From Clytia hemisphaerica (Eukaryota; Cnidaria; Hydrozoa; Leptothecata; Clytiidae), in NCBI GenBank assembly GCA_902728285.1, contig CACVBU010001358.1, positions 1,807,419 through 1,871,418 of the forward strand: a stretch of DNA of 64,000 nt, read 5' to 3'. Shown piece by piece: positions 87 through 63,691 of the stretch. Positions within the stretch are counted from its first letter, which is position 1; the number at the start of each line of letters is the position of its first letter. Below the pieces are notes generated by a model that saw only the letters and a program-made list of their open reading frames with translations, had not been told where the DNA came from and did no database searches. Made by a program: the position numbers and the translations under genes.

Positions 87-3000
87 AGTGGTTTGAGCTT
101 TCTTATAAATGATGGAAAACTTGTCCATGGCAATGTCAATGTCTTTTCCATTTTTGTGACTATTGATGGAGAATGGAAACTTGGGGGTGTTGAATATGTC
201 CATCCTGTTGCCAATGATCCCGTTGCTAAGATATCTGCATTGACCAGATATGATCCACCAGAGGGGATCGCATCAAAAAAGCAAGAACCTTGGTATGTTT
301 AGTAAGAAGGAACTAGTTTTGGGAATCAACAGAACCAGAGTTTTAAACCTCGTGTATTTTTTGAAAAAAAGTCGACTGGACAGTGATTTGAGGTTTTAAG
401 TTGGATTAAAACTGTTTTCATGCTTGTCAATTAAAAAAATCAATACACGCTAAATCAACACAAAGGATTTATATTGAGGAAGTTTATTGTGGCTTGGATC
501 ACGAGATTTACGTTTGGCTACGTTTCGAGAGATTCTCCTATTAATGTGGAGGATGTTTTCCCCACTATTTCTACTAATAGATCTTCTGGGAAAAAGGATT
601 TAAACTAAGTTTGATAAATACATAGCAATTTTTAAGCATTTAGCATCATTCTTTTTATCTTTATGACTGTTTTATAGGTCAATAGATGCTTGGGGTCTTG
701 GCTGCTTGTTATGGGAAATTTTCAATGGTCCACTTGAAAACGCCTCAAATATGAAGAAAGTTTCCAACGTAAATATAACATAAATATTAGAACTGCTTTA
801 AACAAAGTCAAGTTGAAGGAAAGATTCAAGCTAATTTCTTGATATTGAGGTGAAAAGATATTTTTGCTTGATTGTTGAATAAAGGGTACCGTTAGAAGGA
901 TTGCATTAGTCTTTTTTGCTATGTTTTATTGCAACTTTAAATAAAGAGTAATTCATTTTCTTAGATTCCAAAGTCTCTGGTTATTCACTATGGAAATCTT
1001 GTGTGTGCCAACCCACGACAAAGAACCAATCCACGAGATTTCTTAAACAATGCAAAGAAGCCTGGTCAATACCTCAATAATTCATTCATCACGGCAAATA
1101 TATTTCTTCAAGAAATTCAGGTACAAAAAATCTAACGTTGGATCACTTCAAGAAGCACATCTTCAAGTTTTAGCTTATTATTATGATTCAAAGATAACAA
1201 AAGATAAAAGCATGAATGAAAATATCGAACCCAACAGTTTTAATTGACTAACATGTCAGATATGTTTCATATCTTTTACGGATAATGATCTGATAGAAAA
1301 TTTCATTTTTCATTATTTCAGCTGAAGGATATTGAAGCTCAAAAACAGTTCTTTGGAACACTTGACAAAACAATAGATGATTTTCCAAAGGACTTTTGTA
1401 TACATAAAGTGTTACCACAGCTTTTGAATGCATATGAGTTCAGTACCGCAGGATCTTCTGTTCTCTCCCCTCTTTTCAAGGTGAATTGATTTGACTTTTC
1501 TAACTATACTTTGGCCCATTTTTTTCTAACTGTAATTTGGCCCAATGTTACAATGGCTGTAATGTGGAGATTATTTTAGATACAAAATTGAAAATCAAGG
1601 TTCCATTGTGTTTGGATCGTGGAATTATCATTTACCTAACTCATTGCTACACTATAACTATACTTCTTTCTCTCTTTCGGCAGATTGGCTTGTTACTGGA
1701 CGACGAAGCTTATGAAAAAAAGATTTTACCATGCATCATCAAGCTGTTTTCTTCGAATGATCGGTCCACAAGAATCCACTTGCTGCAGCAGGTTTATCCA
1801 TCATTCTCATTTTGATAGATTTCTTAGCTTTATGTTAGACCAAGAATTTTTCCCTTTTCATTGATAATGCTTCTGCTAATTAAAAACTATGTTTTTTTTC
1901 TATCTATTGGTTGGTGACTCGAGCGTCTTTGGCACCGTGGAATATGGGAGGGCCCTCATATTTTGCAGGTTAAATTTTTTAAAACCTTAAAAACTCTTTA
2001 TACGACTAGGTGACGTTTTTGCAAAAACAGGAAAATTTTCTTCATCGACCAACCAAGGCGGGCAGCGTTTTTTGGCAAAATTTTAACCCCCAACCTCGTT
2101 GTATTTCTCTAACCTATAAACCAATCTAACCTGTGTACACAAAAAACACTAGCTTCTTCTTAATTTTCTTTAGATGGAGAAATTTGTCAAGCATCTGCAG
2201 AAGAGTGTGGTCAATAATCAAATCTTTCCGTGTGTAGCAACAGGTTTCGGGGATACACTCCCTGCCATGAGAGAACAGACTGTCAAAGTAATCCATCGGT
2301 TGTATATTATATTTTAAGTTTATGTATTTCGTCTTTTCTATCCTGTTTCTGGTTGAATTTTGGAGCTCGAAAAACCTTTCATGAAATTTCAGTCTTGTCT
2401 AGATTGCACTTAGGTAAAGATGAGGGTAATTGTTCGTATCCACATTTTTTCGAAAAAATATCTTCATCTGACATCATCATGTACAGGCTATGCTGCATTA
2501 TAGCTCTCTTCATTCATGAAATTTTGGTTTTGTCTAGATTGCACTTGGGTAAAGATAGTAGAGTATAGTCTTAGACTGAATGCGATGAGGGTAATATTGT
2601 TCGTATCCACATTTCTAGAAAAAACATTTTCATCTGACATCAATCATAATGTACATATGCTACATTATAGCTACTTTTCATTCATGAATTACTCATCCCT
2701 TACAGGCGATGTTGTTATTAGCACCAAAACTATCTGACAAAGCATTAGATCAACTGTTACGTTACTTTGCTAAACTACAAATGGATGAACAAGCAGGAAT
2801 CAGGACTAACACAACTATATGTCTTGGTAAAATTGCAGAACATCTGTCTGATCAAGTAAGCAAAGCTGTTTTGTTTTCACCGAGTTTATTTTTACCATTT
2901 TTGAGTCTTTGAACATCCATTGCTAACCTTTGCAATATTTTTACAAAGCTAACTGTGATTCGCCTTTAAATCCTCTTCTGTCCAATATGTAACTTAAGGG

Positions 3001-6000
3001 ATTTAATTTTCGCGAGACAGCTTGCCTCGCGAAATAATTTGATGTTCGCGGGACTGTAAATTTTCACGAAGATTTAATTTCGTAAATTGGCGAATTTTTT
3101 CAGATTTTCACATTTTTCGTTAGTTTGATTACGAGATTTTGTGTGTACAGTAGAGTCTCCATAACTCAAACGGCTACGAGGAATGAAAATTTGTACTAGT
3201 AATCGTATGGTTTGGAGTGCAATTAACGATTAATCACGAGTAACAAAGGAGAAAATAGTAATTTGCACGAGTCCGAAGGACAAGTGCAAATTACGGTATT
3301 TTCTCCTTTGTTACGAGTGATTAATCGTTAATTGCACGACAAAACATACGATTCCGAGGTAATCGTCAGTAAATAATCATTAGTAAATCAATTTCTAACT
3401 TTTATATTTTTGTAAACATTCGAAAACCTCCTTTTTTTCTTTTGTTTAAAAAGAAAACATTGCAGTGTAATTTTTCTTTGTTTTCAATTAAAAAAAGCTA
3501 TTGTAACGTAAAATTTCTTTGTTCTTTTTTATATTGAAGAAAAAAAATGTCTTTGTTTTTTATTATATAGTAAAAAAAGTCTCTGACACAGGATTTGGGA
3601 GCTAGAAAAGAATAAGGGGACAAAAGTGTCCCCCGCCGAAGAGTGCAAAAAGTGGTAATAGTGCAATTAACGATTAATTGCACTCCTCTAAACCAATCAG
3701 ATTCGAGTAATTTTGCACGGCTGACGATTAATTCGAATAATAGAGACATTCGAGTAATAGAGACTCGTTTAAGAGAGTTCCTTAGCTGAAAGAATTTTTA
3801 GCGTAAAAAAATTAAATTTCGCGAATTTAGCGAGAGATGAGAGTTTGAAAATTTTCGCGAAGGATTATATTTTGCGAAAAAGGCGAAATTCGCGAAAATT
3901 CGCGAAGTATAATCCCCGCAAAAATTTACTCCCTTAAGATTATTCTATTTTTTCGAAGTAATAAATAACCGTATAGTTTTATGTGGCCCATTGATTGAAT
4001 GATTGTACTTCAACATGATAGCCATTTACATTGCTGTGATGTTGTTTTTCAGACCAGAAAGAAGGTTTTAATTCCGGCGTTCGTCCGTTCATTCCGGGAT
4101 CCTTTTCCACCGGCACGATCGGCCGGCGTTATGGCGCTGCTGGCGACGCAACAATATCACGACATCAGAGAAGTGGCGGGCCGTGTGTTACCGGCCCTTT
4201 GTCCGCTGACCACAGATCCTGAAAAGATGGTCCGAGATAATGTAAGCTAAGTTTTAAGCAGGTTCTTCTTTTTACTCATTGTTTGCGTTGATATTTTTTA
4301 CAAAATAATAAAGTTAGTACCGCCAATCTGGATTCATATTATAAATGAGACAGGTTGTAACTTTCATCACCTTCAAACAGGAGATTTTTTTTCTATCTAC
4401 TTCAAGTAAATTAATGATAATTTTTATTTTTTCTACGATTTTTTTTTACAATTTTCTAAGGTGTTCAAAGCCATCAAAACGTTCCTGGAAAAACTTGAAG
4501 ATTTTTCGACAAACCCTCAAAGTCCGCTGAATAATGAAGGTACGTTTAGCGATTTCAAGGATAGACAGCTGCAGTTTTTCCACACTTATAAGTTACTGTT
4601 GCAAGATTTTAAGAACCGATTCAGGGAACAGAATTTGCTTTGCAATTAAAATAGCAAACCCTAAACGATGTGGTTCCAGTTTTACTTGTTTTACATCCTT
4701 TTGCAATTCGCCTGAATGATGGCTTTGTTCTGCAGTTCACCCAAGGGCCAAGTGACGAACACTGAATTATTGGATGATGATAGGATGTCCACTACACTAG
4801 AGTCCAAAAGTCTATCAAGGGTGTGCGAAAGCTTTAGGAAGGTTACCTAGTCTAGATGTAGACTACTAATTTAAAACTTTATACTAAAATGCTACTAAAA
4901 TTATTTCAAACTAAAAAGAGAGACGCGCCCCAGAGAGAGAGAGAGCAAGAATTAGTATAATTATAATTATGAAAACTCTCTCTCGTGCGATTTTTTATAG
5001 CAGACTTACTCTTTTTCGGCTTTGTGGCAGAGTTACCCTTATATAATGGTCTGGAAATCGAGACAAGAAGGTTACGCGATTTTTTTTAAAACCTTGATAA
5101 CCCAGCGTACTTTGACGGAGATAAAATGAATATTTTTACTTATTATTCCTCTACAGAAGCTGCGGTAGAAGAGGCAAACGGTCAGGGTGGTTCCACGTGG
5201 ACAGGGTGGGCGGTTTCTTCATTCGCATCGAGGTTTTATCAGCAAGGTGCTGGCGCACAAGGTGGAACGCAGAAACCAGGCCCTCCGAATCAACAGCAAA
5301 GTAAAGGTATATTCGCTATGTGCTATTCCACCCACCGAAAAGAACATCAATATCAATTAATTCATTTTTGCTTAGAAATTAGCTCTAGCCATTGCGTTTT
5401 TGTTTGCAACTTGTTCCGTGTTCCTAGTTGTCTTAGAGAATGAAAATTGTTCAAGCTATAAAAGCAACACCCATTATTGATATATCGGGAGGTGTATTTC
5501 TGAAGAGTGGCTTAGTTTACCCAGTCATGGATGGATTTCTCTTCGTTTGAATCGCATTTGTTCCCCTTTTTCAGGACTTTAAACTATTGAGGTTTTTCAA
5601 GTAACGTAAGTTCCTCAATTATGGAAGCAAACGTTCGAATCTGTAGAGACGATCCCTTACGTAATTCGAACGTTAGCTTCTATAATGGTGGAAGTTACGC
5701 AACTTAGAAAACATGAAAAACCTCCCATGCTTGATTTATTGTTAAACCTCTTTTAACGTTCTTCATACGTTCGAAAAAGATACGAACAGTGGTAACAAAC
5801 CAACAGGAATGACATTGAAAGGGAAAGAGGAGGAGAAGAAGAAGACAATGAAGAACGAAAAACATTTGGATAGTGGTGATGATAGTGATACGTTTAAGGT
5901 TTGTGGATTTTTTGTCATAGCAACTACACCAGTTCAAACGTCCGTTAGATTCTGTTATTTTACCCATGTAGCAATCCACCTTTACCGGAATGTATTAGCT

Positions 6001-7879
6001 CTTTTCATCCCACTTTTCGTATACATGTAACACGGTATGCCAGTCTTCCCTTTCTCATTATGTTTTGAGCACTTCACTATTCTTCCTTTTTTGTTAGAGT
6101 TTGGATTCCATAAAAGATGCCCTTATGGACGTCCGCGAAGAGGTTAGTCAATATAAGGTAAGACCTATCCCTTTTATACAAAAAACATTAGATTTCACTC
6201 AGTGATTTCTTACGAAGAGGTTAGTCAATATAAGGTAAGACCTATCCCTTTTATACAAAAAACATTAGATTTAACTCAGTGATTTCTTACGAAGAGGTTA
6301 GTCAATATAAGGTAAGACCTATCCCTTTTATACAAAAAACATTAGATTTAACTCAGTGATTTCTTACGAAGAGGTTAGTCAATATAAGGTAAGACCTATC
6401 CCTTTTATACAAAAAACATTAGATTTAACTCAGTGATTTCCTACGAAGAAGTTAGTCAATATAAGGTAAGACCTATCCCTTTATACATAAAAAAACATTA
6501 GATTTAACTCAGTGATTTCTTACGAAGAAGTTAGTCAATATAAGGTAAGACCTATCCCTTTTATACAAAAAACATTAGATTTAACTCAGTGATTTCTTAC
6601 GAAGAGGTTAGTCAATATAAGTAAGACCTATCCCTTTTATACAAAAAACATTAGATTTAACTCAGTGATTTCCTACGAAGAAGTTAGTCAATATAAGGTA
6701 AGACCTATCCCTTTTATACAAAAAACATTAGATTTAACTCAGTGATTTCTTACGAAGAAGTTAGTCAATATAAGGTAAGACCTATCCCTTTTATACAAAA
6801 AACATTAGATTTAACTCAGTGATTTCTTACGAAGAGGTTAGTCAATATAAGGTAAGACCAATCCCTTTTATACAAAAAACATTAGATTTAACTCCAGTGA
6901 TTTCTTACGATTATCGAAAGACTTGAAGCCAGGATGGCTTACAGCCCGCTCTAATGTCAATTATAATTTTTATGTAAAGAGTATGGTGTATAAAAATACG
7001 GATAACTTTGTCTTTTCCTTTTCAGTCGAGTAAAACGAAGGACGGAAACAAAAGTGATTCAGACCAAAGTGATTACGGAGATTGGAAAGATGATGGATGG
7101 GGCGTGCAACAAGATGACGCCAAAGATAAACATGGTGGAGGTGGTTGGGATGATACGGTTGCAGATGGTTGGAATGATCCTAGCCCAGGTGGTTGGGATG
7201 ATACGGGTACAGATGATTGGGGTGTAAGTGAAGCACCAAAGAAGACCAATACAACAACAGCAACGAAAAAGGTTTGGAATTTATTTGCCCCTACTTTTAC
7301 GGGAGGAAAGGAATGATTTTCTTCAGGAATGGCACGAATTATGTGGTTTTACTGCTAGAGTCTTTCTCGGTTCCTGTTAAGTCGAATTTGAACTAAAAAC
7401 TAAGTCTCTACAAAGTTTAAATTTGCTATCCTATTTTTCATTCATAGAAGAATGTCGACAAACTAAAGTCGTTCAGTACGGCTAATAATGAAAAGACTGT
7501 CAATGCCGCAGAAGGCTGGGGTGGTTGGGATGAAAGTAATAATACGATGACAGGTGGTTGGGATGATGCAACAAACGACGAAGGTGGAGCTGGTTGGGAT
7601 GTAGACAATTTTGTTGCAACAGATAATTTGGGTGTAGAAAGCTCAGACGGTTGGGGTGATAGTTTTGGACTGGAAGAAAATACGAACAGTGGAGACTTCT
7701 GGGATGATAAATTTAAAGAGAAGGATAAACAGGAACTTAAGAAAAAGCGTGAAGAAGATTTAAGGAGAAAACGCGAAGAACGAAAAGCTCAACGTGAATT
7801 AAAAAATAAAAATCGCCGTGAAAAAACTGTAACCTCTGGAGGAGGTATGAAACTTGGGGCCGTCAAAAAGAAGGATTAA
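87..7879 (+). CDS. SCYL1: SCYL1 / N-terminal kinase-like protein, 3' part (partial at the left edge)
   Basis: Exons: 87-292, 678-768, 965-1120, 1322-1480, 1684-1791, 2174-2287, 2706-2855, 4053-4241, 4461-4539, 5157-5306, 5807-5898, 6098-6157, 7026-7271, 7448-7879 (stop TAA 7877-7879). All junctions are GT-AG and phases chain without a break. The first visible exon holds the degenerate catalytic region: LVHGNV replaces the HRD loop and WKLGGVEY replaces DFG, so this is a pseudokinase as in SCYL1. HEAT-repeat sequence follows ([26 protein letters not shown]). Next is a Trp/Gly/Asp-rich linker with repeated GGWDD and DGWG, then a Lys/Arg/Glu coiled tail (about 7725-7840) and a C-terminus ending [10 protein letters not shown]. 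In the family the last four residues (RKLD in human, as remembered) bind COPI; KKKD keeps the basic pair. Known role: Golgi-ER retrograde traffic. The kinase N-terminus lies upstream of the window. Exons 5807-5898 and 6098-6157 encode a poorly conserved linker and are the least certain. Confidence 0.95.
2993..3938. repeat. about 946-bp terminal-inverted-repeat element in a SCYL1 intron
   Basis: The ends CTTAAGGGATTTAATTTTCG (from 2993) and the reverse complement of the segment ending at 3938 (CTTAAGGGAGTAAATTTTTG) match at most positions, so the stretch looks like one inserted non-autonomous element. The interior is rich in TTCGCGAA-type motifs next to both ends. A second fold-back sits inside it (3201-3353). 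No protein-coding capacity of its own is seen. It makes up most of the 1.2-kb intron between the exons ending at 2855 and starting at 4053. Confidence 0.7.
3201..3353. repeat. near-perfect 68-70 bp inverted repeat nested in the intron element
   Basis: Left arm 3201-3268 and right arm 3284-3353 pair with only a few mismatches around a 15-bp loop. Both arms contain AACGATTAATCAC and CAAAGGAGAAAATA or the complement. A shorter related motif, GTGCAATTAACGATTAATTG, recurs at about 3660. The arrangement suggests a young fold-back insertion inside an older element. Confidence 0.8.
4835..5075 (+). repeat. dispersed intronic repeat (copy 1; inverted copy at 36020-36255)
   Basis: Shared blocks include ACCTAGTCTAGA, TAGACTACTAATT and TGGTCTGGAAATCGAGAC. 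The second copy lies in inverse orientation in an intron of the CPES-like gene. No coding capacity is visible. Nature unknown; a decayed transposon is the simplest reading. Confidence 0.55.
5590..5728. repeat. imperfect fold-back element in a SCYL1 intron
   Basis: The left arm starts at GAGGTTTTTCAAGTAACG and the right arm ends CATGAAAAACCTC. The centre pairs through AAACGTTCGAAT and ATTCGAACGTT. It is about 140 bp with no coding potential, consistent with a short MITE. Confidence 0.6.
6136..6912 (+). repeat. ten-copy 77-bp tandem repeat that duplicates a SCYL1 exon end and its 5' splice site
   Basis: The core GTTAGTCAATATAAG recurs at 6143, 6220, 6297, 6374, 6451, 6530, 6607, 6683, 6760 and 6837 (intervals 77,77,77,77,79,77,76,77,77). 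The copy at 6607 lacks one G at the junction. The first copy is the last 15 coding bases of exon 6098-6157 followed by its donor GTAAGACC; every later copy carries the donor again. Each unit also has a possible acceptor (TTAACTCAG) before a 32-nt mini-exon whose first codon in the arriving phase is TGA. Base variants show that copies 5-7 and 8-10 are a duplicated triplet. The array fills most of the 6158-7025 intron. Confidence 0.95.
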
Positions 7880-16950: not shown

Positions 16951-19086
16951 ATGGCTCTTGATTTCGGCGCCGGTTGCCTAGGAGGTAAGTCTTTTTTCAA
17001 ATTTCTTTTATCTAAGGGCATTTTGCCAATACCAATACTAAGAATCTCTTAATATCAAGGTGAAACGATAAACGATGACGGCGATAAACGTTGCCCTCAC
17101 AAGCATATCTGCCCTCACAAGCATATCTGGGCCCAGATATTGCAAAGGTTTATGCTAAGCATTACCTTGAGCCTACTTTTTCCGTTTTTTGATGGAATTT
17201 TACTGATTTTAAGAATTTCCCAGAACTTTGGCTTATGATATAAGCATTTTCAGCCTTGTCAATCTCTCGATCTAAGCATCTCCGAGAAAGTTTTTTAAAA
17301 TGTACCTTAATTTAATCTAATTTAAATTAACCTATTAATAGGTAAGCCTGAAAAATTTCGCTCGAGCCCTGATGATATTCCAGCAACTGTTGAGTAAAAT
17401 TTATATTGCCAAAAAATAGTCGATATTGAGAGAAAGATCGTAAAACCAATGGCTAACGAGAAAGCGCGACAAAGGAACTTTAAACTGAATATTTTCGTTT
17501 TTTCTTTACAGGGGCTGCCGGTGTGGTAGTAGGACAACCTTTTGACACAGTAAAAGTAAGTTTCGTTAAGGTGTTAGTCAAATTTTTAGCTTTTTAATGA
17601 CATTTGCACGTATTGCCCAGGCCCAAGAGAGAAACAGTCAGGGAATTGCACCTAAATGCTCCCCTTCCCATAGGCACATGCTGATTGGGCTGTTCCATAA
17701 AATTTCCGAGCCTTTTCAAGTGAAAACAAATTTCTTGGAAAAGTGTAGATACCCCCCTGGAAAATGGCAAAATTTGCAAAAGAACCCTTGGAAAAAATTC
17801 TTTTCTTGTATCTCAAAGTGAGGGTGGACGAATTAAAATCAGTTGTTCACCCCCTGGAAATTCAAGAATAACTTTTTACCCCCTAGAAAAATGAAAAAAG
17901 TGTGTAAGAGAACGGTTTTACAACATTTAAACATTACGGATGAGGAAAGAAAGATACGATTATTTAATATTGACTTTCTATATTTTGTTTTTCTTCAGGT
18001 TCGTTTACAAGTACCTAAAGCTTCGTACCGTGGCGTGTTTCATTGTTTCACCACCATGGTCAAAGAAGAAAGCGTATGTCTCCTTACATCTTCATCATTC
18101 ATAGAGATCTTCATAGTTTTCTTTGCAATTCTGTCTATCATTAAGCAAGCTCGAACATTAATTTGCAGATGCTGGAACACAGGCCTACCATACTCAACCC
18201 TGTTATTGACACTCTTCTGAGAAACTTTGTTTCATTTCCTTCACTCTAGTTTTCAGGCTTAATTACTCTCTTCTTATCGCACTTGAAAAATTCGGAAACA
18301 CCAATTCTTTGACTGATTTGTTATATGTGTAATAATAATTTAGTAATTTTTTTTCTTTTCTTCACTTTTCAGATATTCAGTTTATACAAGGGAATGACAC
18401 CCCCACTACTCGGAGTGGCTTTTCAAAATGCTATTTTATTTGGATTGCAAGGATATTTCCGACGTTTCGTTGATGACAGTGTGTCCGGTGAAATGATCGC
18501 CGGAGCACTAACGGGAGCGTCGCAAGCTATTGTTACAGCGCCTATCGAACATGCTAAAATTAAACTACAAATTCAAGGCACAGGATGTCCCACACAGAAC
18601 ACACGGAGATATAAAGGACCTATTCAAACGATTTTACAAATCAGACGTGAGAGTGGTACTAAAAGTTGTTTTCGTGGACTTCTTGGTGTTGTGTTGAGAG
18701 ATATGCCAGGAACGGCTATTTACTTCGGATCTTTTTCTTTTTTGAACCAATTTTTCATCCCCGAAGGTGGCGATATAAATTCTTTACGGCCCGCCACGTT
18801 ACTTTTTACAGGAGGACTTGCAGGCATGCTTTCATGGGCGGCTTTTTATCCGATAGATGTGATCAAAACACGTATACAAGCGGAAGGATTGCAACCGCAC
18901 GGGCGGTATGCTTCATATACGGACTGCGCTGTTGTCAGTTTTAAAGAGGAAGGGTATACATGGATGACAAGAGGTTTTGGTGCAACCATGTTACGAGCTT
19001 TCCCTGTAAATGCGGCTATTTTCGCTACTGTAACTTTGATCTATCGATATATGAGATCACAATCGAGTGATGAATATGATGATTGA
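16951..19086 (+). CDS. SLC25A29: mitochondrial carrier, SLC25A29-like (basic amino acid / carnitine-acylcarnitine branch)
   Basis: Exons 16951-16984, 17512-17555, 17999-18073 and 18373-19086 (stop 19084-19086) give 288 aa, a normal length for the family. The start MALDFGAGCLGG matches the remembered SLC25A29 N-terminus. Three carrier signature repeats are visible: PFDTVK (residues 21-26), PIEHAK (108-113) and PIDVIK (211-216), implying six membrane helices in the inner mitochondrial membrane. The near-C-terminal LRAFPVNAAIFATVT also matches the SLC25A29 branch more closely than SLC25A45/47/48. In that branch the substrates are basic amino acids exchanged or imported into the matrix; the substrate here is inferred only. 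The second signature has Glu in place of Asp and HAK rather than x-[KR] spacing seen in the others, as family members vary here. Confidence 0.92.
17095..17310 (+). repeat. dispersed AAGCAT-rich intronic repeat (relative of 62958-63241)
   Basis: Shares CAAGCATATCT, a TAAGCATTACNTGAGC block, TGGAATTTTACNGATTTT, CAGCCTTNT and CGANCTAAGCATCTC-like blocks in the same order with the element in B4GAT1. It lies in intron 1 of the SLC25 gene. The outer inverted ends are less clear here than in the other copy. Confidence 0.65.
17680..17885 (+). repeat. GGTGGACGAA-type dispersed repeat, copy 1 of 3
   Basis: Contains CTGGAAAATGGCAAAATTTG, GAGGGTGGACGAA and CCCCCTGGAAATTC. Related copies are at 37520-37795 (inverted) and 39205-39410 (direct). 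The open frames 17594-17821 on both strands run through this repeat and are not genes. It lies in intron 2 of the SLC25 gene. Confidence 0.75.
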
Positions 19087-33648: not shown

Positions 33649-33966
33649 AAATGGAATTTCTTTTTGAGGAGGAATATTTTGTGTTTTCCTCGTGTTATCA
33701 ATTTCTTCATGTGTCGAGACTGATGTTGTTTGAAGAGTTGATTATTTCTACATTCTACTTATTCATCTCATTCTTGTGTAGCAGTTTTTATAAGCAGACT
33801 TTTTAGATCATTTTATTTGTACATTTGAACAAGTGCAGAAACACAAAACTTTAAGTAAGCTATGTACTTTAGTTAAATTCAATTTTTACCTATAAAAATT
33901 CTACGAACAATTTTCAAATTTTTTTTTGCCATAGGATTTCCATCAAAACAGGAGAAAAATAGAAAA

Positions 33967-36900
33967 ATGAAAGGTAAAATAGATACACCACCAGTGAAGC
34001 GCTCCAATTGGGGTTTCTATGGCTTCTTTGCTCTCATGACATATTTCATTTGGAGTGATTTGGCATTTTTTGGTGAGATGAGTTCAGAACAGAATCACTT
34101 GAGCATGCATTTACGAAATGGGAGTGCTCTTGAAAAAAAGACAATCAAGTTACGTATGCAAGACCATTTTGCACATCATTTATATTTACCTTTTTGTGAG
34201 TGGATGGAGCGAAATTTCCACCTGTCACAAATCCCTGGAGTCACACCAAACGCCATCACTGCTCTACATTTCAGTTTGGCTATAATTGCTGGTCGTCTCA
34301 TTGCCAGTTCGTCTTTCTCACACCGTCGTGCAGGAGCTGTTATTTATTTCATCAGAAACATGCTTGATACATTAGATGGAGTTATTTACAGAGCAAAGTC
34401 TAAAAGCACTGACTACTTGTCTGGATGGGGGACCTATGGATATATGATTGATGGAATGGCTGATACTATCGGTGGATTATTCATTATGATTGGAACAATT
34501 TATAGACTCAACAAACATCTCCCTATCAAAAACCCAGAAATTTTACCAAAATTGAAGAACAAATACCGAAATTATGATGCAGAAAGTGGAGAACGCTTAC
34601 TTTCAGCTGACGAGTCTTGCAGTGAAAATGAAAAATTGGAGGAAGGTTATGGATTAAAACGTTACTCTAGACAGACTGTAAATTTGACAATTTTCTTTTT
34701 CACGCTGACAGTTATTGTTCGCAGTGCATTATGGGATCATTTCAATCATGGTTATCATGAATTGCTCGCTCAAAAACGACCGGATATTTCACCAGTAAGC
34801 ATTCCCACGTGAACCTTTATATTGACTTTTTTAGTTGGCACTTATAGTAATTCGGTGCTATTCTAGTTAAACAAATTCGATTCACATGTTTTAATTTTTG
34901 AGCTATTTTCACCTCAGGTTGCTGATGAAGTGAACAAATTATTAAATGTTTCTTCTTTTTTCACTTGTAGATGAAACAAGAAGAAGTATTGGGGTATGGA
35001 AGCACGTGGTTTTCACTTTGGTTGTGGAAGATCATGAGTGCTGATGCCTTCATGCACTACACATTGATCGCACTCTTCTTTGGCAAAATCTGGGTAAGGT
35101 TCCTATTTTGAAGTGCTCTTGCCGAAAAGGTTTTAAAGGGTATAGATATAATTGTATTGGAGTAGTAGAAGAGGGGTTCGATTCCCACTTGGTGCTGTGA
35201 TTCACTTGGCAAGTGAATAAACCTTCGCCCAGGTCAACCAATGCCATATGAGGGGAATTGGGTACCATGTTCTTATACAAGAGTATGGGAAGATATGCCT
35301 GACTCTGTGGTGTGGTTGCTAATACTTGTCAGGTTCGACCATGCGAGGACGCACTGTCCTCTCGAGTCGTTCGAGTATAGTAACTATACACCATCGGCTC
35401 TGTGTGTGTCGCGAGCAGGAGTTGGCAAAGCCGGTTAAGCGCAGTGATTTCCCTATCCTAGGATAGTAGGAAATTACTTTCTTTTTCTCATAGGATGTAA
35501 TTGTGATCAGATTTTGATACCTTTAGCACAGATATCTGTAAAGCCCGAAGGGCTAGATAGGCAACTTTAAGCTTTCTCCAGCAAAAAAAAGTGAAGCAAA
35601 AATTTGACTTTTTAAATTTCGTGCCGATGGATAGGATCTAGTATTTTAATTGTTTTCGGAGCGCGAGATCAAAAAAAGTAGGCGGCAAACGCTATTTCAC
35701 ATCTCTCAAACCGGTGAAATTGCATATTTTAGTCACGTGACTTTGGTAGGAAATCCTTCCAAACCTAGGCTTCACTTTTTGATAAAAGCCGCAAATCTAT
35801 TCCTTCGGGCTTTACAGATCTGTGACCTTTAGACCTTAAATAGCCAACCTTGACGCTTAATTTTGAGAATGTTTCATGACAACACATGTCATTTTTTAAA
35901 TCCAAACAGATCTGTCATACTGTCATCGCCTTTATATCCTGGGAATTTAACATTACATAAAGCTTATCTCCTTCCTTTCAAAATGTTCCCAAATTTTGCG
36001 AACAAAATCACGTTCAGGTAAAGGTTCTTAGTCTCGATTTCCAGACCACTATTCTTTTAACACAAAACGTAGGAGCAATCCTGCCTCAAAGTAAAAAAGA
36101 AGAAAAAAAGCCGTGCGGGAAGTTGGAATAGTTAATTCAAACACTCGAAAAGTAGACAAACTTCTAGGTAGGTTTTTTCTACTACTGTAAAAGAAGCTTT
36201 TGAGTAAAACTGATGTTAATTAGTAGTCTAGCTCTAGACTAGGTATAGGTTGGTTTTTCAAATATCGTCTGATAAAACAATTTTAGACAAATTAACTAGA
36301 CGGTTCCCCTCGTCGCAAACGCCGGTTTAGCTTTAAATGAAATTTTAAACATAAAATAAAAACCAAAACGTATCATCGGCTACTTTTTCGAAAGGCAATA
36401 AGATTTTTTGTCTTAAAACTGCACGAAATCCTTCTTTCATACTCGAATCAACCCCTGGCAAAATTTGAGAAGTAGCAGCTCAGCTACCATCTTGCGTTAC
36501 ACATAGTAAGATTTAAAAAAACATAGTACATAAAGGCATAAAGTTTTCTTGAAAACATTAAAGATTTATATCAGTAAGAAATCATCTCGTTGCTCGATAT
36601 AATTTTCGAAAGTTAAATTTGTGAAGGTCAAATAGATTAACGTTTCCATGCCAACTGGAAATATTTTTTTTCTTGTTCAAAAATGAAAGGCGCTTATTTG
36701 AAAATATTCGCCCTCGTCAGTGTAGGCCTTCCTTAACCTAAAAAGCAGTCAGTTTGTCATTGTTTTTCTTCCAGGTTCGACTATTCTTTCCCAACATTTA
36801 TGAATCTTAATCATCATTTTTCATATGTTTTTGATGAAAATTATTTCACAATGTCTTATTCTGTATATTCCAAAGGAAATATTTCTCTGGAACCTTCGAG

Positions 36901-42459: not shown

Positions 42460-53019
<10,560 letters not shown>

Positions 53020-54500: not shown

Positions 54501-54837
54501 TGCTTTTTAAGCTCTTTCATAGCATAAATCTGTGATGTTTTTCTGAAAAAGCGCGAGATTATGAGATTAGTACACCCCCGCCTCTGCTCCTCCGCCCATA
54601 TCGATCGTTGGCGGAAGGCGGATTATGACAGATAGTGGGCGGGAGAATTTCGCCTTTCTTCAACATTCGATTTCCAGTCTCATTCGACTTTTCATGCACG
54701 AGGTGTCAGTCTGTCAGTCGAAGCTGGTCGAAGGGACGAATGACATCCATAAATTTCTTCAATTTTCAGGTACCTTTCAGATTTTCTTACATTAATCTAA
54801 CTTTTATGGAATACATCAGGACCTGGAAAGTTATTCA

Positions 54838-55212
54838 ATGATGAGTCTACCTAGATATGCTATTATTTTGAATCAAAATGCCAATGAGGAGGACGGTGGT
54901 GGAGCAGGACTAGCAAATAGTGCAAATTCTGTTGCTGCTGGTAGCAGCAGGAAGACAAATGTTGATGATGTTACTTTCTTTCAAGCTCTGTCACAACTTG
55001 ATGCACGTGACCCCACTATTTTACAAGAGTTCATGGACGTTTACAGATATGTAAAAGTGAAAATCTCTGGAATTAGTGATTGCATAAGTTTCCATGAAAA
55101 AACTGAGGATTCTCCAGATTTTGAGGAATTTTCCGTTGATTTATGGAAAGAATTTTATATTCAAGAGGGTATCATACAAATTGGCGTTTTAGAAGATAAA
55201 GAACCAACAGAG
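54838..55212 (+). CDS. first coding exon of an unidentified gene
   Basis: From ATG 54838 (a second ATG follows at once at 54841) a 125-codon frame runs to a donor GAG|GTATTT in phase 0. It is preceded by an acceptor (CAATTTTCAG, about 54769), so a non-coding 5' exon is likely. The protein starts MMSLPRYAIILNQN, passes a Gly/Ala/Ser stretch (about residues 20-40), then an acidic, hydrophobically patterned segment with FFQALSQLDARDPTILQEF and SVDLWKEFYIQEG. I do not recognise a family. It shows no signal peptide or membrane segment. The next exon may be as far as 59142, with an intron full of inverted-repeat elements, unless exons in between were missed. Confidence 0.6.
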
Positions 55213-55305
55213 GTATTTGTTATATATATCAAGTGGATCTGGCTGGGGGAGTCTATGGGGGTTCAGTTCAGTTACAGTAGTTACTGTAGTAAGAGGGTTA
55301 GGGCC

Positions 55306-55826
55306 AGATGATCTCAATCGAACAGAATCGACGATCGAACCAGTCAAACCAAATCGAACGGATTCGACCAATTGAAATTCGATTGTCGAATGCAATCGAA
55401 TCTCAATTGAATGTCAAAATTATGGGTAATATTCGATTGGTTCGATTGTTGTTCGACTGGTTCGATTGTCGATTCAGTTTGATTGAGATCGTCTGGTAGT
55501 CAGCTTAGTGATCTGGTGATGGTGGCTCGAAATTTGATTACCCGTAATGCTTCCGGTCTTTTGAATTCGCCAGAAAGCATCGCGAGCACTGATCTGTAAC
55601 CACTGTGCTCTGAAAATCATATGATGTCTGTACCCGGAATCAAACGCAATCGAATCCTAATTGAACATCAATCGAACGCAATCGAATATCAATTGAGAAT
55701 CTGAATATTGGGGTAGTATTCGATTGAGATTCGATTGCGTTCGACAATCGAATTTCAATCAGTCGATTGCGTTTGATTTGGTTCGACTGGTTCGATCGTC
55801 GATTCCGTTCGATTGAGATTGTCTGG
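55306..55826. repeat. ATTCGATTG-rich fold-back element(s)
   Basis: CAGATGATCTCAATCGAAC at the left and GTTCGATTGAGATTGTCTG at the right are inverted, and each half (about 55306-55496 and 55655-55826) is itself made of ATTCGATTG / CAATCGAAT blocks in both orientations. It looks like two related palindromic units around a 150-bp core, or one element with duplicated ends. The 63-79 codon frames here are repeat translations. Confidence 0.8.
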
Positions 55827-60691: not shown

Positions 60692-63691
60692 ATGAAAAAA
60701 TTATGGAGATTCAAACTGAAATATTTGCTTTTAATTTCAACATTGATTACTTTAGTGTTGCTGTATAACTGGGCAAAGGCTTCTAACAAGGTATACAATA
60801 CTTAGTATTTTGTTTATCCCAAAAGTATTTGTAATATAGTTGGGCTAGAGCCTTTTGTATTTCTTTCTGTATGTCCCAAATATTTTAGGGCAGCTTTGAG
60901 AACGGTCTCATAAATACCTGGGGTGTTGTTTTTACTTTTTATAAACTTTGATTTTTAGGGTCTGGGGAGCTTGGGTTTTTTCACTATTACTATGTCTGCA
61001 CCTTTGAATAGAAAAATATTAAAGTTGGGACTGTGTTGTGCACTTTCTACTATTTTTAAAGAGTTTTTTGTTTCTGTTTTTTGTTTTGTTGGCAAAACCG
61101 TCCATGTTTTGCTTTCTTATCACAGAGGCCAATTTGCTTAAACAGAGGCTGTCAGTTTATTTAACAATGTCTTAAATTTCATTTACACAAAAGTTGCTTA
61201 TAATCAATCAATTTGTATACCAAAGTCTGCCTCAATATAATTTGCAGCGGAGACAAAAAGGCTGTAACTCTTGATAGAATAATTCGAAATAGATAGCAGT
61301 TCTGTGCTTGTTAAAAAGATAATTTGGTGTAGAATTATTATCATAAAAGAAAAAATTCAAAAAATGGAAAAACGAAGGATGAAAAACGAAGAAGAAGAAA
61401 ATCAACTTCTTGTAGAATAACGCTATGATCTTCATGTTTATATCAGAAATTCTTTAATCTTAGAACATCATAAAATGCGAAAAAAAATCAAAAAAATATT
61501 CATTCAGTCAAATAATACAGTTTAAAACTCTACCCTGATTGACTTAAGAAAGGGCTCTTTTTGATATTTTTTGATTGTTTTTGAAGTCAATCAGTGATAA
61601 AATTTGGACTATCTTTCGATGGAATAAATTTCTTTGAAAATTTTTTTCATATTAATGATGTTCTAAGATAATTATAACACAATTATTAGTTGATTTTCTT
61701 CTTCTTCATTTTTATAATCTTCACTTTCCGATCTTTTTTGAGATTTTTCTTTATGATAATATTCCACTCCTTTTTATCTTTTCAACAAGCACAAAACTGC
61801 TAACTAATTCGAATTTTGTCAAAAGTGATAGCCTTTTATGTCTCTTCAAATTATATTGAGACAGACTTTATTTTGATGGGAATGAACTTACAAATTGAAA
61901 ATTTACGTAGCTCTAGAAATAATTTATCTTTAGATAATCGTCAATGTGGACCTTCGTCTGAATTTTATGGATCTTCCTGAAACAAGGGATAGACATTACA
62001 AGATTTGGAATAGTCTATACTCAGTTTTTGATGGAAAAGAGGAATCTGGTTCAACCAATATCAATGCTGGAATTGCTACACAAACATCTTTGAATCATCT
62101 CCACAATTTAATCACACTTGTTGATGCATGGAATGGCCCGATCTCAGTAGGTATTGTTTATCAATCTTTTTCTCTGTTTCTCAAGTTATATAAGAAGAGG
62201 CATCTTTGATTTGAAACTTTCTCTAATAATTGTTTTTCTATTTCATTGCAGGAGTGTTCACGCCCGGTCGTTTGTTACCTGATACTTTACAACACATCAA
62301 ACAGCTGATTTTATGTCACCCAAAGATCTCACAATATGTAACATTTAACCTGCTGCTTCCCTTGTCTCACCCTCCTGAGGACCCAATATTGATGTTTTCT
62401 ATCACTGCAGTTGATAAATGTAATAATTTACATTTGGATGCAAGACCTTTGAAACAAACTGAAGATAATTATGATAATTCTAAGGTAGTTTTTGAAAACA
62501 TTCAAACATTATTTATATAGAGAGAAAGCATTTGAAATATTTTCCTTGATAAATCTTACAAGTGATAACCATTAAGAATAATATTGTCTATATTTAAAAA
62601 TTTTCAAAAAGTTTCAAATACTTTGTAGTCTACAAACTGCTGGCTCGATTTTTAGTAAGAATGAATCAAACGAACTAAATTGCACAAATCAAATAAGTTC
62701 CTTTTTCCATGCTTGCAGATTGTATATCCTGTCAATGCTTTGCGTAACATTGCTGTGAAAAACCTTCAAACATCTCATGTTTTCATGATTGATATTGATA
62801 TGCTGCCAAGTAAAGGATTACGTCATTATTTGAAAACAACAAACCTTTTATACCATGATGAAATGCAAGGTACAGGCCATTAATCAAGTTGACCAAGTAG
62901 ATGATGCCTATCCTGTGTTTGTCTATTTTGAAAGCCCATAACATACCATGTTATTGAGTTACATGTTTTTTTTTTATAAGCATTGCACTTATAAGCATAT
63001 CTAGGCTTGGATATGGGAAAAATTAAGCATATGGCAAGCATTACTTGAGCTTACGAAAAATGTTTTTTCCCTGATTTTGGCTCTTTTTTGGCTGGAATTT
63101 TACGGATTTTCAGTATTTCCCTAAATTTATGCTTTGGATTTAAGCATCCCCAAGCATTTTTCAGCCTTATTAAGCTTTCGACCTAAGCATCTCTGAGCCT
63201 GTTTTCGGATTTTTGTATGCTTATAAAAAAGAACATGTAACCAACTGAAAAAGTAAACCCAATTATAATTTTGGATTGTAAGTAATTTTCCTGCAAATTA
63301 AAATATTTATTAGATTGAAAAACAAATAGAAACCTGAGATCTCTGATTTATACTCCCTAACATCAACAGAAGTAATACACAAAATGAGCTCTTTTTGAAT
63401 CTGTAGTTCCAATTAGTAAATTTCATCCATTTAGAGCATTCATATCATTGAAACGCTGTGTTTATGAATTTTGACCTTGAATTCTATTTACGATAAGTTT
63501 ACCTCAAATTTTTACTGTCTCCCTTTTTATTCAGCGTTTGTGATTCCAGCTTTTGAAGTGAAAACAGAATCGAATATTCCAGACAATAAAGAGCAACTTC
63601 TTCAAAAATGGGAGAAAGAAGATGCAAGACCATTCTATTACACGGTCTGTTGGAAATGCCAGAAGAATACGAACTATAAACGATGGAGATT
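60692..63691 (+). CDS. B4GAT1: B4GAT1-type beta-1,4-glucuronyltransferase, 5' part (runs off the right edge)
   Basis: Exons 60692-60790, 61934-62150, 62252-62484, 62719-62869 and 63535-63691 chain in phase; the last ends in phase 2 and the gene continues. The start codon is the one followed by a short basic stretch and a hydrophobic signal anchor (KKLWRFKLKYLLLISTLITL, residues 2-21 and on to about 25), giving a type II Golgi protein. The GT49 domain has WNGPISVGVF, YPVNALRNIA, a DxD motif in FMIDIDMLPSKGL (D208, D210; metal and UDP-sugar binding in the family), VIPAFEV, and RPFYYTVCWKCQKNTNYKRW, which parallels human B4GAT1 ([20 protein letters not shown], as remembered) more than LARGE. Known role: adds glucuronate to the xylose primer on alpha-dystroglycan so that LARGE can extend it. 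I could not place the next exon: the acceptor at 63779 is in phase but reaches a stop after about 20 codons. Confidence 0.88.
60892..60985 (+). repeat. single decayed unit of the alpha-actinin 156-bp repeat
   Basis: TTTTAGGGCAGC, AATACCTGGGGTGTTGTTTT, AACTTTGATTTTTAGGGTCT and GGGGAGC follow the order of the unit at 48800-49512, in the same orientation. A CTTTCTGTATGT stretch just upstream recalls the microsatellite ahead of the array. It lies in B4GAT1 intron 1. Confidence 0.7.
62958..63241. repeat. 284-bp AAGCAT-rich MITE in a B4GAT1 intron
   Basis: Ends GTTACATG ... TTTATAAGCAT and ATGCTTATAAA ... CATGTAAC are inverted over about 27 bp with one or two indels. The interior is rich in AAGCAT. 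A relative lies in the SLC25 intron at 17095-17310. Confidence 0.8.

Follow-up and report, generated by a model that had tools for sequence, protein, structure and literature searches.

A ten-copy minisatellite carrying the predicted exon 12 splice donor of a SCYL1-like gene in Clytia hemisphaerica

The minisatellite of human IFI6 (6-16, G1P3), reportedly described by Turri, Cuin and Porter in 1995, has a unit of 12 bp. Two downstream repeat units of IFI6 are used as splice donors (PMC4526556). In human ABCA7, a VNTR in intron 18 includes the donor of exon 18, and its 25-bp unit opens with the two bases of that donor; splicing from a further donor keeps one unit in the transcript and leads to a premature stop, an event unaffected by VNTR size, whereas longer VNTRs go with more skipping of exon 19 and with lower expression (PMC5954066). 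Introns are also known to be gained when segments that bear AGGT are tandemly duplicated (PMC3443670, PMC4974935). Repeats in an earthworm metallothionein intron were considered as a parallel and set aside, since the passages concerned do not place donors within the repeats (PMC12783039).

We identified a tandem array in a SCYL1-like gene within a 64,000-nucleotide stretch of C. hemisphaerica DNA (the window). Judged from its letters, the array is a further example of the donor-bearing minisatellites of ABCA7 and IFI6, with a unit longer than 10 bp that includes the predicted donor of an exon. As in ABCA7, the tandem repeat contains the exon's own donor, and choice of a further donor is predicted to give a premature stop. 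Unlike the 25-bp ABCA7 unit, however, the units found here also carry 22 exon bases, and they belong to another gene. The ABCA7 VNTR is polymorphic, with 12 to about 427 copies, transcript data and a disease association, whereas the present array is known from one sequence. As in IFI6, a minisatellite supplies several splice donors; the alternative donors of IFI6 give three mRNA species that encode isoforms (PMC4526556), whereas the downstream donors of this array would all lead to one stop. The original prediction had called minisatellites grown from an exon-intron boundary unusual, which is fair, but the ABCA7 VNTR (PMC5954066) and IFI6 (PMC4526556) precede this one. A SCYL1 gene with repeats was not among the literature matches listed; these cover the literature in part, and absence from print is not claimed.

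Tandem Repeats Finder places the array at 6136-6910 with a period of 77, 10.0 copies and 97% matches, the top score among 17 rows for the window. The features of this region, all on the plus strand, are the following.

6098-6157, plus strand: exon 12, predicted from a GT-AG model, 60 nt, phase 0 at either end; copy 1 opens with its final 22 bases
6136-6910, plus strand: ten-copy tandem array; the 77-bp unit consists of 22 exon bases and 55 intron bases
6143-6144, plus strand: second donor-like site, GAG followed by GTTAGT, score 7.9, in frame and 15 nt upstream of donor 1
6158-6159, plus strand: donor 1, AAG followed by GTAAGA, predicted main donor of intron 12, score 10.7
6158-7025, plus strand: predicted intron 12, 868 nt, which would shrink to 174 nt if the nine extra copies were removed
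6203-6205, plus strand: TGA, in frame for any of donors 2-10 (nine of nine)
6235-6853, plus strand: donors 2-10, with GT at 6235, 6312, 6389, 6466, 6545, 6621, 6698, 6775 and 6852; eight of the nine share an identical core
7026-7271, plus strand: exon 13 as predicted, 246 nt, phase 0 at both ends, acceptor score 9.0

The units start at 6136, 6213, 6290, 6367, 6444, 6523, 6600, 6676, 6753 and 6830. Copies 1-9 measure 77, 77, 77, 77, 79, 77, 76, 77 and 77 bp, and copy 10 measures 78 bp and is followed by CGA. The tandem repeat analysis thus bears out the ten-fold duplication over a 5' splice site that had been proposed. The unit had been described as the last 15 coding bases of the exon with about 54 bases of intron; the intron part holds (55 bases), but the exon part has 22 bases, or 19 if the unit is slid over a CGA match. 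Donors had been expected at 6158 and then roughly every 77 bases, and ten are present, although the exact spacings are 77, 77, 77, 77, 79, 76, 77, 77 and 77. Few sites vary within the array; changes confined to one copy are seen in copies 1 and 10, and indels of this kind in copies 5 and 7. A search that allowed up to three mismatches gives nine matches to a 22-base core of the unit in the window against 0.00 expected from 100 shuffles, while copy 7, with its deletion, escapes it. The exact 22-mer of the unit is absent from contig collections of prokaryotes and viruses, which by their content say little about relatives. On the minus strand, GTATAAAAGGG, which we take to resemble a TATA box, recurs in nine of the ten units (6169-6873) against 0.07 expected in the window; this recurrence is probably a by-product of repetition. 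A predicted alpha-actinin intron (48692-49840) holds a second large array at 48795-49508 (156 bp, 4.6 copies, 91% matches) and, shortly before it, a run of TGTC (48744-48791).

The hand-built model of the SCYL1-like gene comprises 14 exons (87-7879), all 13 introns being GT-AG, and its frame stays open for 752 residues up to a stop. The gene starts upstream of the window, and its N-terminal part is outside the model. In a phmmer search with the first 447 residues, the best match of solved structure is 3vwa, 'Cytoplasmic export protein 1' (E 5.5e-24, residues 12-407), which we take to be yeast Cex1, a SCYL1 relative, an identification consistent with PMC8015235; the match supports the gene family named in the original prediction. 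Pfam recognizes HEAT repeats in the 752-residue model (5.6e-13) and gives no kinase match at 0.001 for it, the N-terminal part preceding the window. Exon lengths range from 60 to 432 nt, exon 12 being the shortest of the 14, and most exons have equal start and end phases. Within the acidic tail of the protein, GGWDD-like residues are encoded by a 24-bp repeat (3.3 copies, 7142-7221). The model ends in KKKD, similar to the RKLD with which mammalian Scyl1 ends and which has been compared with the COPI-binding KKXX motif (PMC2832016); a COPI-binding, dilysine-like C-terminus is accordingly a prediction from resemblance.

Six proteins of the window were submitted to Pfam. Matches elsewhere comprise a mitochondrial carrier (18313-19086), a CDP-alcohol phosphatidyltransferase (33877-34812), spectrin repeats (50104-50760) and a glycosyltransferase of family 49 (61934-62209), and the protein at 54796-55311 has no Pfam match. 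The gene with the spectrin repeats is presumably alpha-actinin-like, a name given by eye.

Splice-site matrices were trained on 26 introns of two genes in the window, the SCYL1-like gene (other sites) and the alpha-actinin-like gene (pieces in 44278-53016). The alpha-actinin exon pieces were chosen by eye with the known protein as a guide and with GT-AG and frame checks, and where a junction was ambiguous the fitting one was taken. This is a small local set in which the acceptor at 5779 scores -7.9 and is possibly misplaced. The acceptor (TTCGAAAAAG, 5770-5780) of predicted exon 11 (5780-5898) is apparently this very poor site, and that exon may begin elsewhere.

These matrices give the exon 12 acceptor 8.4, more than 14 of the 26 mapped acceptors receive, and the exon 12 donor 10.7. 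Comparable in-frame decoy exons of 20-300 nt number zero in 10,656 bases of 25 introns, whether counted strictly at these two scores or loosely (4.0 and 6.0), the two introns that flank exon 12 being left out of this control. The fit of the model, the scores and the decoy control together support 6098-6157 as an exon; the frame-consistent 14-exon model and the same control uphold the exon and its donor as first proposed. Without the extra copies, intron 12 (174 nt) would be close in length to its neighbours (199 and 176 nt); the 27 mapped introns measure 131-1197 nt, with a median of 366. Among acceptors between 6160 and 7030, that at 7025 is clearly the best (9.0), and the next two, at 6920 (4.0) and 6979 (3.8), both lie past the array.

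The core AAG + GTAAGA is found in nine of the ten array donors, each scoring 10.7, and nine of the ten are identical in the bases from -6 to +8. Under the same matrix 23 of the 26 other mapped donors score lower, a number that rises to 25 when each of them is omitted in turn, and no decoy GT out of 490 comes as high. In copy 7 (6621) the loss of one G gives TAA + GTAAGA, with a score of 5.9 rather than 10.7. The further units are predicted to keep donors of usable strength, eight of nine at 10.7 and one at 5.9. The GAG + GTTAGT site is present in six of the ten copies and scores above 17 of the 26 real donors, and at 6143 it offers a possible form of exon 12 that is five codons shorter.

The repeat, its donors, the reading frames and the stop can be read from the DNA itself, at the level of prediction that the gene model allows. 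From donor 1, the frame continues for 225 residues to the KKKD end. Use of any downstream donor was said to retain an in-frame TGA, and this is correct for all of donors 2-10, which would meet the same one at 6203; that stop would remove the last 225 of 752 residues together with KKKD. In model coordinates the junction of exons 13 and 14 lies at least 275 nt past the TGA, a position for which the usual rule would predict nonsense-mediated decay. In poison exons coupled to nonsense-mediated decay, extra sequence brings a premature stop. Inclusion of extra array sequence would do likewise; however, it would enter through alternative donors and not as a cassette exon, and the acceptors that a cassette would need score poorly.

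We also considered whether RNA structure hides or exposes particular donors and rejected this, the predicted accessibility of the ten array donors (0.008-0.054) falling inside the range of 26 others (0.000-0.299). Folding of the array is weaker than the average over 20 mononucleotide shuffles (-0.139 versus -0.166 per nt), and Rfam at the gathering threshold has no match in the window. Inverted repeats between 5900 and 7300 amount to one 15-nt pair at 87%, one arm of which lies at the private insertion of copy 5, so that the pair is not a property of the unit.

Our preferred reading, to which we assign a probability of about 0.57, is that a minisatellite was founded over the boundary of exon 12 and intron 12, and that donor 1 dominates, the array leaving with the intron at the cost of modest, decay-prone leakage. 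CGA opens copy 1 and also stands directly after copy 10, which fits ordinary tandem duplication at a three-base match. The founding duplication would have joined these CGA sites across the boundary, and additional slippage or unequal exchange would then have lengthened the array. When 77 consecutive bases are taken at random from the SCYL1-like gene, they contain a donor junction with a probability of 12.6% (any junction, 0.254), so the presence of a donor in the founding unit needs no special cause. Copies 4-6 match copies 7-9 at two shared variant sites, suggestive only of a three-unit block duplication, since 9.9% of 20,000 shuffles equal the pattern (13.4% when blocks of 3-5 are counted). 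The private changes and indels of copies 1, 5, 7 and 10 are as in drifting minisatellites. Tandem copying leaves the whole of exon 12 and the first donor intact, so that nine extra copies can join the intron, and this preservation may be why the array could grow.

We infer the dominance of donor 1 mainly because the downstream frame of the gene is still open, intact and presumably needed. Most transcripts would use donor 1 and lose the whole array within intron 12. Some would use downstream donors, donor 2 above all, and would carry the stop at 6203 and be open to nonsense-mediated decay; the leaked transcripts would be a modest loss, with a small net effect. Several points stand against donor 1. 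With donors 2-5, exon 12 would measure 137-368 nt, lengths not out of the ordinary for a gene whose exons span 60-432 nt, and donor 10 would restore an intron of 174 nt. In addition, Eperon is said to have found in 1993 that, where several donors are equal, splicing can favour whichever lies closest to the acceptor; if that were the case here, normal mRNA would be scarce. A precedent for dominance of donor 1 with leakage is the one-unit retention in ABCA7, which carries a premature stop and is indifferent to repeat size (PMC5954066).

Other readings of the array change what is spliced, or whether exon 12 is spliced at all. The unit could be a 32-nt exon, or could serve stepwise splicing as a zero-length ratchet point at AAG + GTAAG, and the letters for this are present, with CTCAG in nine of ten copies and AG + GT in nine of ten. 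An acceptor-like CTCAG had been attributed to every unit, which is accurate for copies 1-9, whereas copy 10 has CTCCAG; since an acceptor would be matched by the donor one copy further on, the array could yield no more than nine mini-exons, and CTCCAG (-0.8) lacks an array donor after it. The proposed block of poison mini-exons is not supported by the scores: CTCAG reaches -3.7 or -3.8 in copies 1-9, 25 of the 26 mapped acceptors exceed both it and CTCCAG, and 273 of 480 decoy AGs equal or exceed -3.8. A further candidate in the unit, ATTAG, scores 0.3 or -1.5; at 0.3 it beats 346 of 480 decoys, but 134 reach that value and it too is below 25 of 26 mapped acceptors. The ratchet point AAG scores -5.0, again below 25 of 26. 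Mini-exons would need introns of 45 nt and stepwise splicing introns of 77 nt, both shorter than all 27 mapped introns (131 nt at the least), and we rejected both candidates. Intron gain from AGGT-bearing tandem duplications lends the idea a precedent (PMC3443670). The array shares with it a copied AG + GT junction (AAG + GT in nine of ten copies), but the acceptor half falls short by score, and here an existing intron was enlarged and none created. Taken with these scores and lengths, mini-exons or stepwise splicing are barely credible. If exon 12 were unused, the array would be an ordinary minisatellite wholly within a 1,127-nt intron (5899-7025), and an exon of 60 nt does leave the frame the same with or without it; the acceptor of 8.4 (above 14 of 26), the donor of 10.7, the open phase-0 frame and the zero decoys in 10,656 intron bases make this very improbable. 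An artefact of assembly in the copy number, conceivable over 775 bp of near-identical copies, appears a shade less credible still, given the private changes in copies 1, 5, 7 and 10 and, as a weak sign that about 10% of 20,000 shuffles equal, the order of the shared variants in copies 4-6 and 7-9.

Exon skipping would take a different course, in which the array upsets exon pairing and some transcripts lose exon 12 or 13 in frame, as happens with exon 19 of ABCA7. Both exons (60 and 246 nt) have phase 0 at either end, so the frame would survive their loss, and in ABCA7 exon 19 skipping rose strongly with VNTR size (PMC5954066). However, the exon 13 acceptor is good (9.0), and most exons of this gene have equal start and end phases, so in-frame skipping is no special sign; we regard this course as quite unlikely. 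The array could instead tune expression, with competing donors sending a sizeable, perhaps tissue-dependent share of transcripts to decay and copy number setting SCYL1 output. The original prediction had likewise allowed for decoy U1 sites, which may tune that output. The near-best core is identical in nine of the ten donors, every downstream choice stops at 6203, and donor 1 gains no advantage from the lengths of exon and intron. The tail that would be lost (225 of 752 residues) includes the KKKD end, like the RKLD of mammalian Scyl1 (PMC2832016), and VNTR length in ABCA7 accompanies lower expression. Against this, variation inside the array is too sparse for selection on the donors to be gauged, and the ABCA7 authors do not ascribe the fall in expression to unit-retention transcripts (PMC5954066). 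Tuning on this scale is unlikely, though the likeliest of the rivals to donor 1 dominance. In its furthest form, which is a speculative and rather improbable one, the array would be a natural competition assay of ten donors for one acceptor, in which copy number sets the amount of mRNA escaping decay and SCYL1 dosage is heritable and quickly adjustable.

The array stands out for the near-identity of so many donors and for the one stop common to all downstream choices. How a donor is chosen among equals is an old question that has been studied with artificially duplicated donors. Ten near-identical natural donors would make a useful test of it, as the choice could be read from cDNA length (+77 to +694 nt). 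The array also indicates how a gene can tolerate a repeat that spans an exon boundary, provided that the first donor stays in charge. If downstream donors are used, the length of the repeat would be a control of dosage, in keeping with the link between repeat length and expression reported for ABCA7 (PMC5954066).
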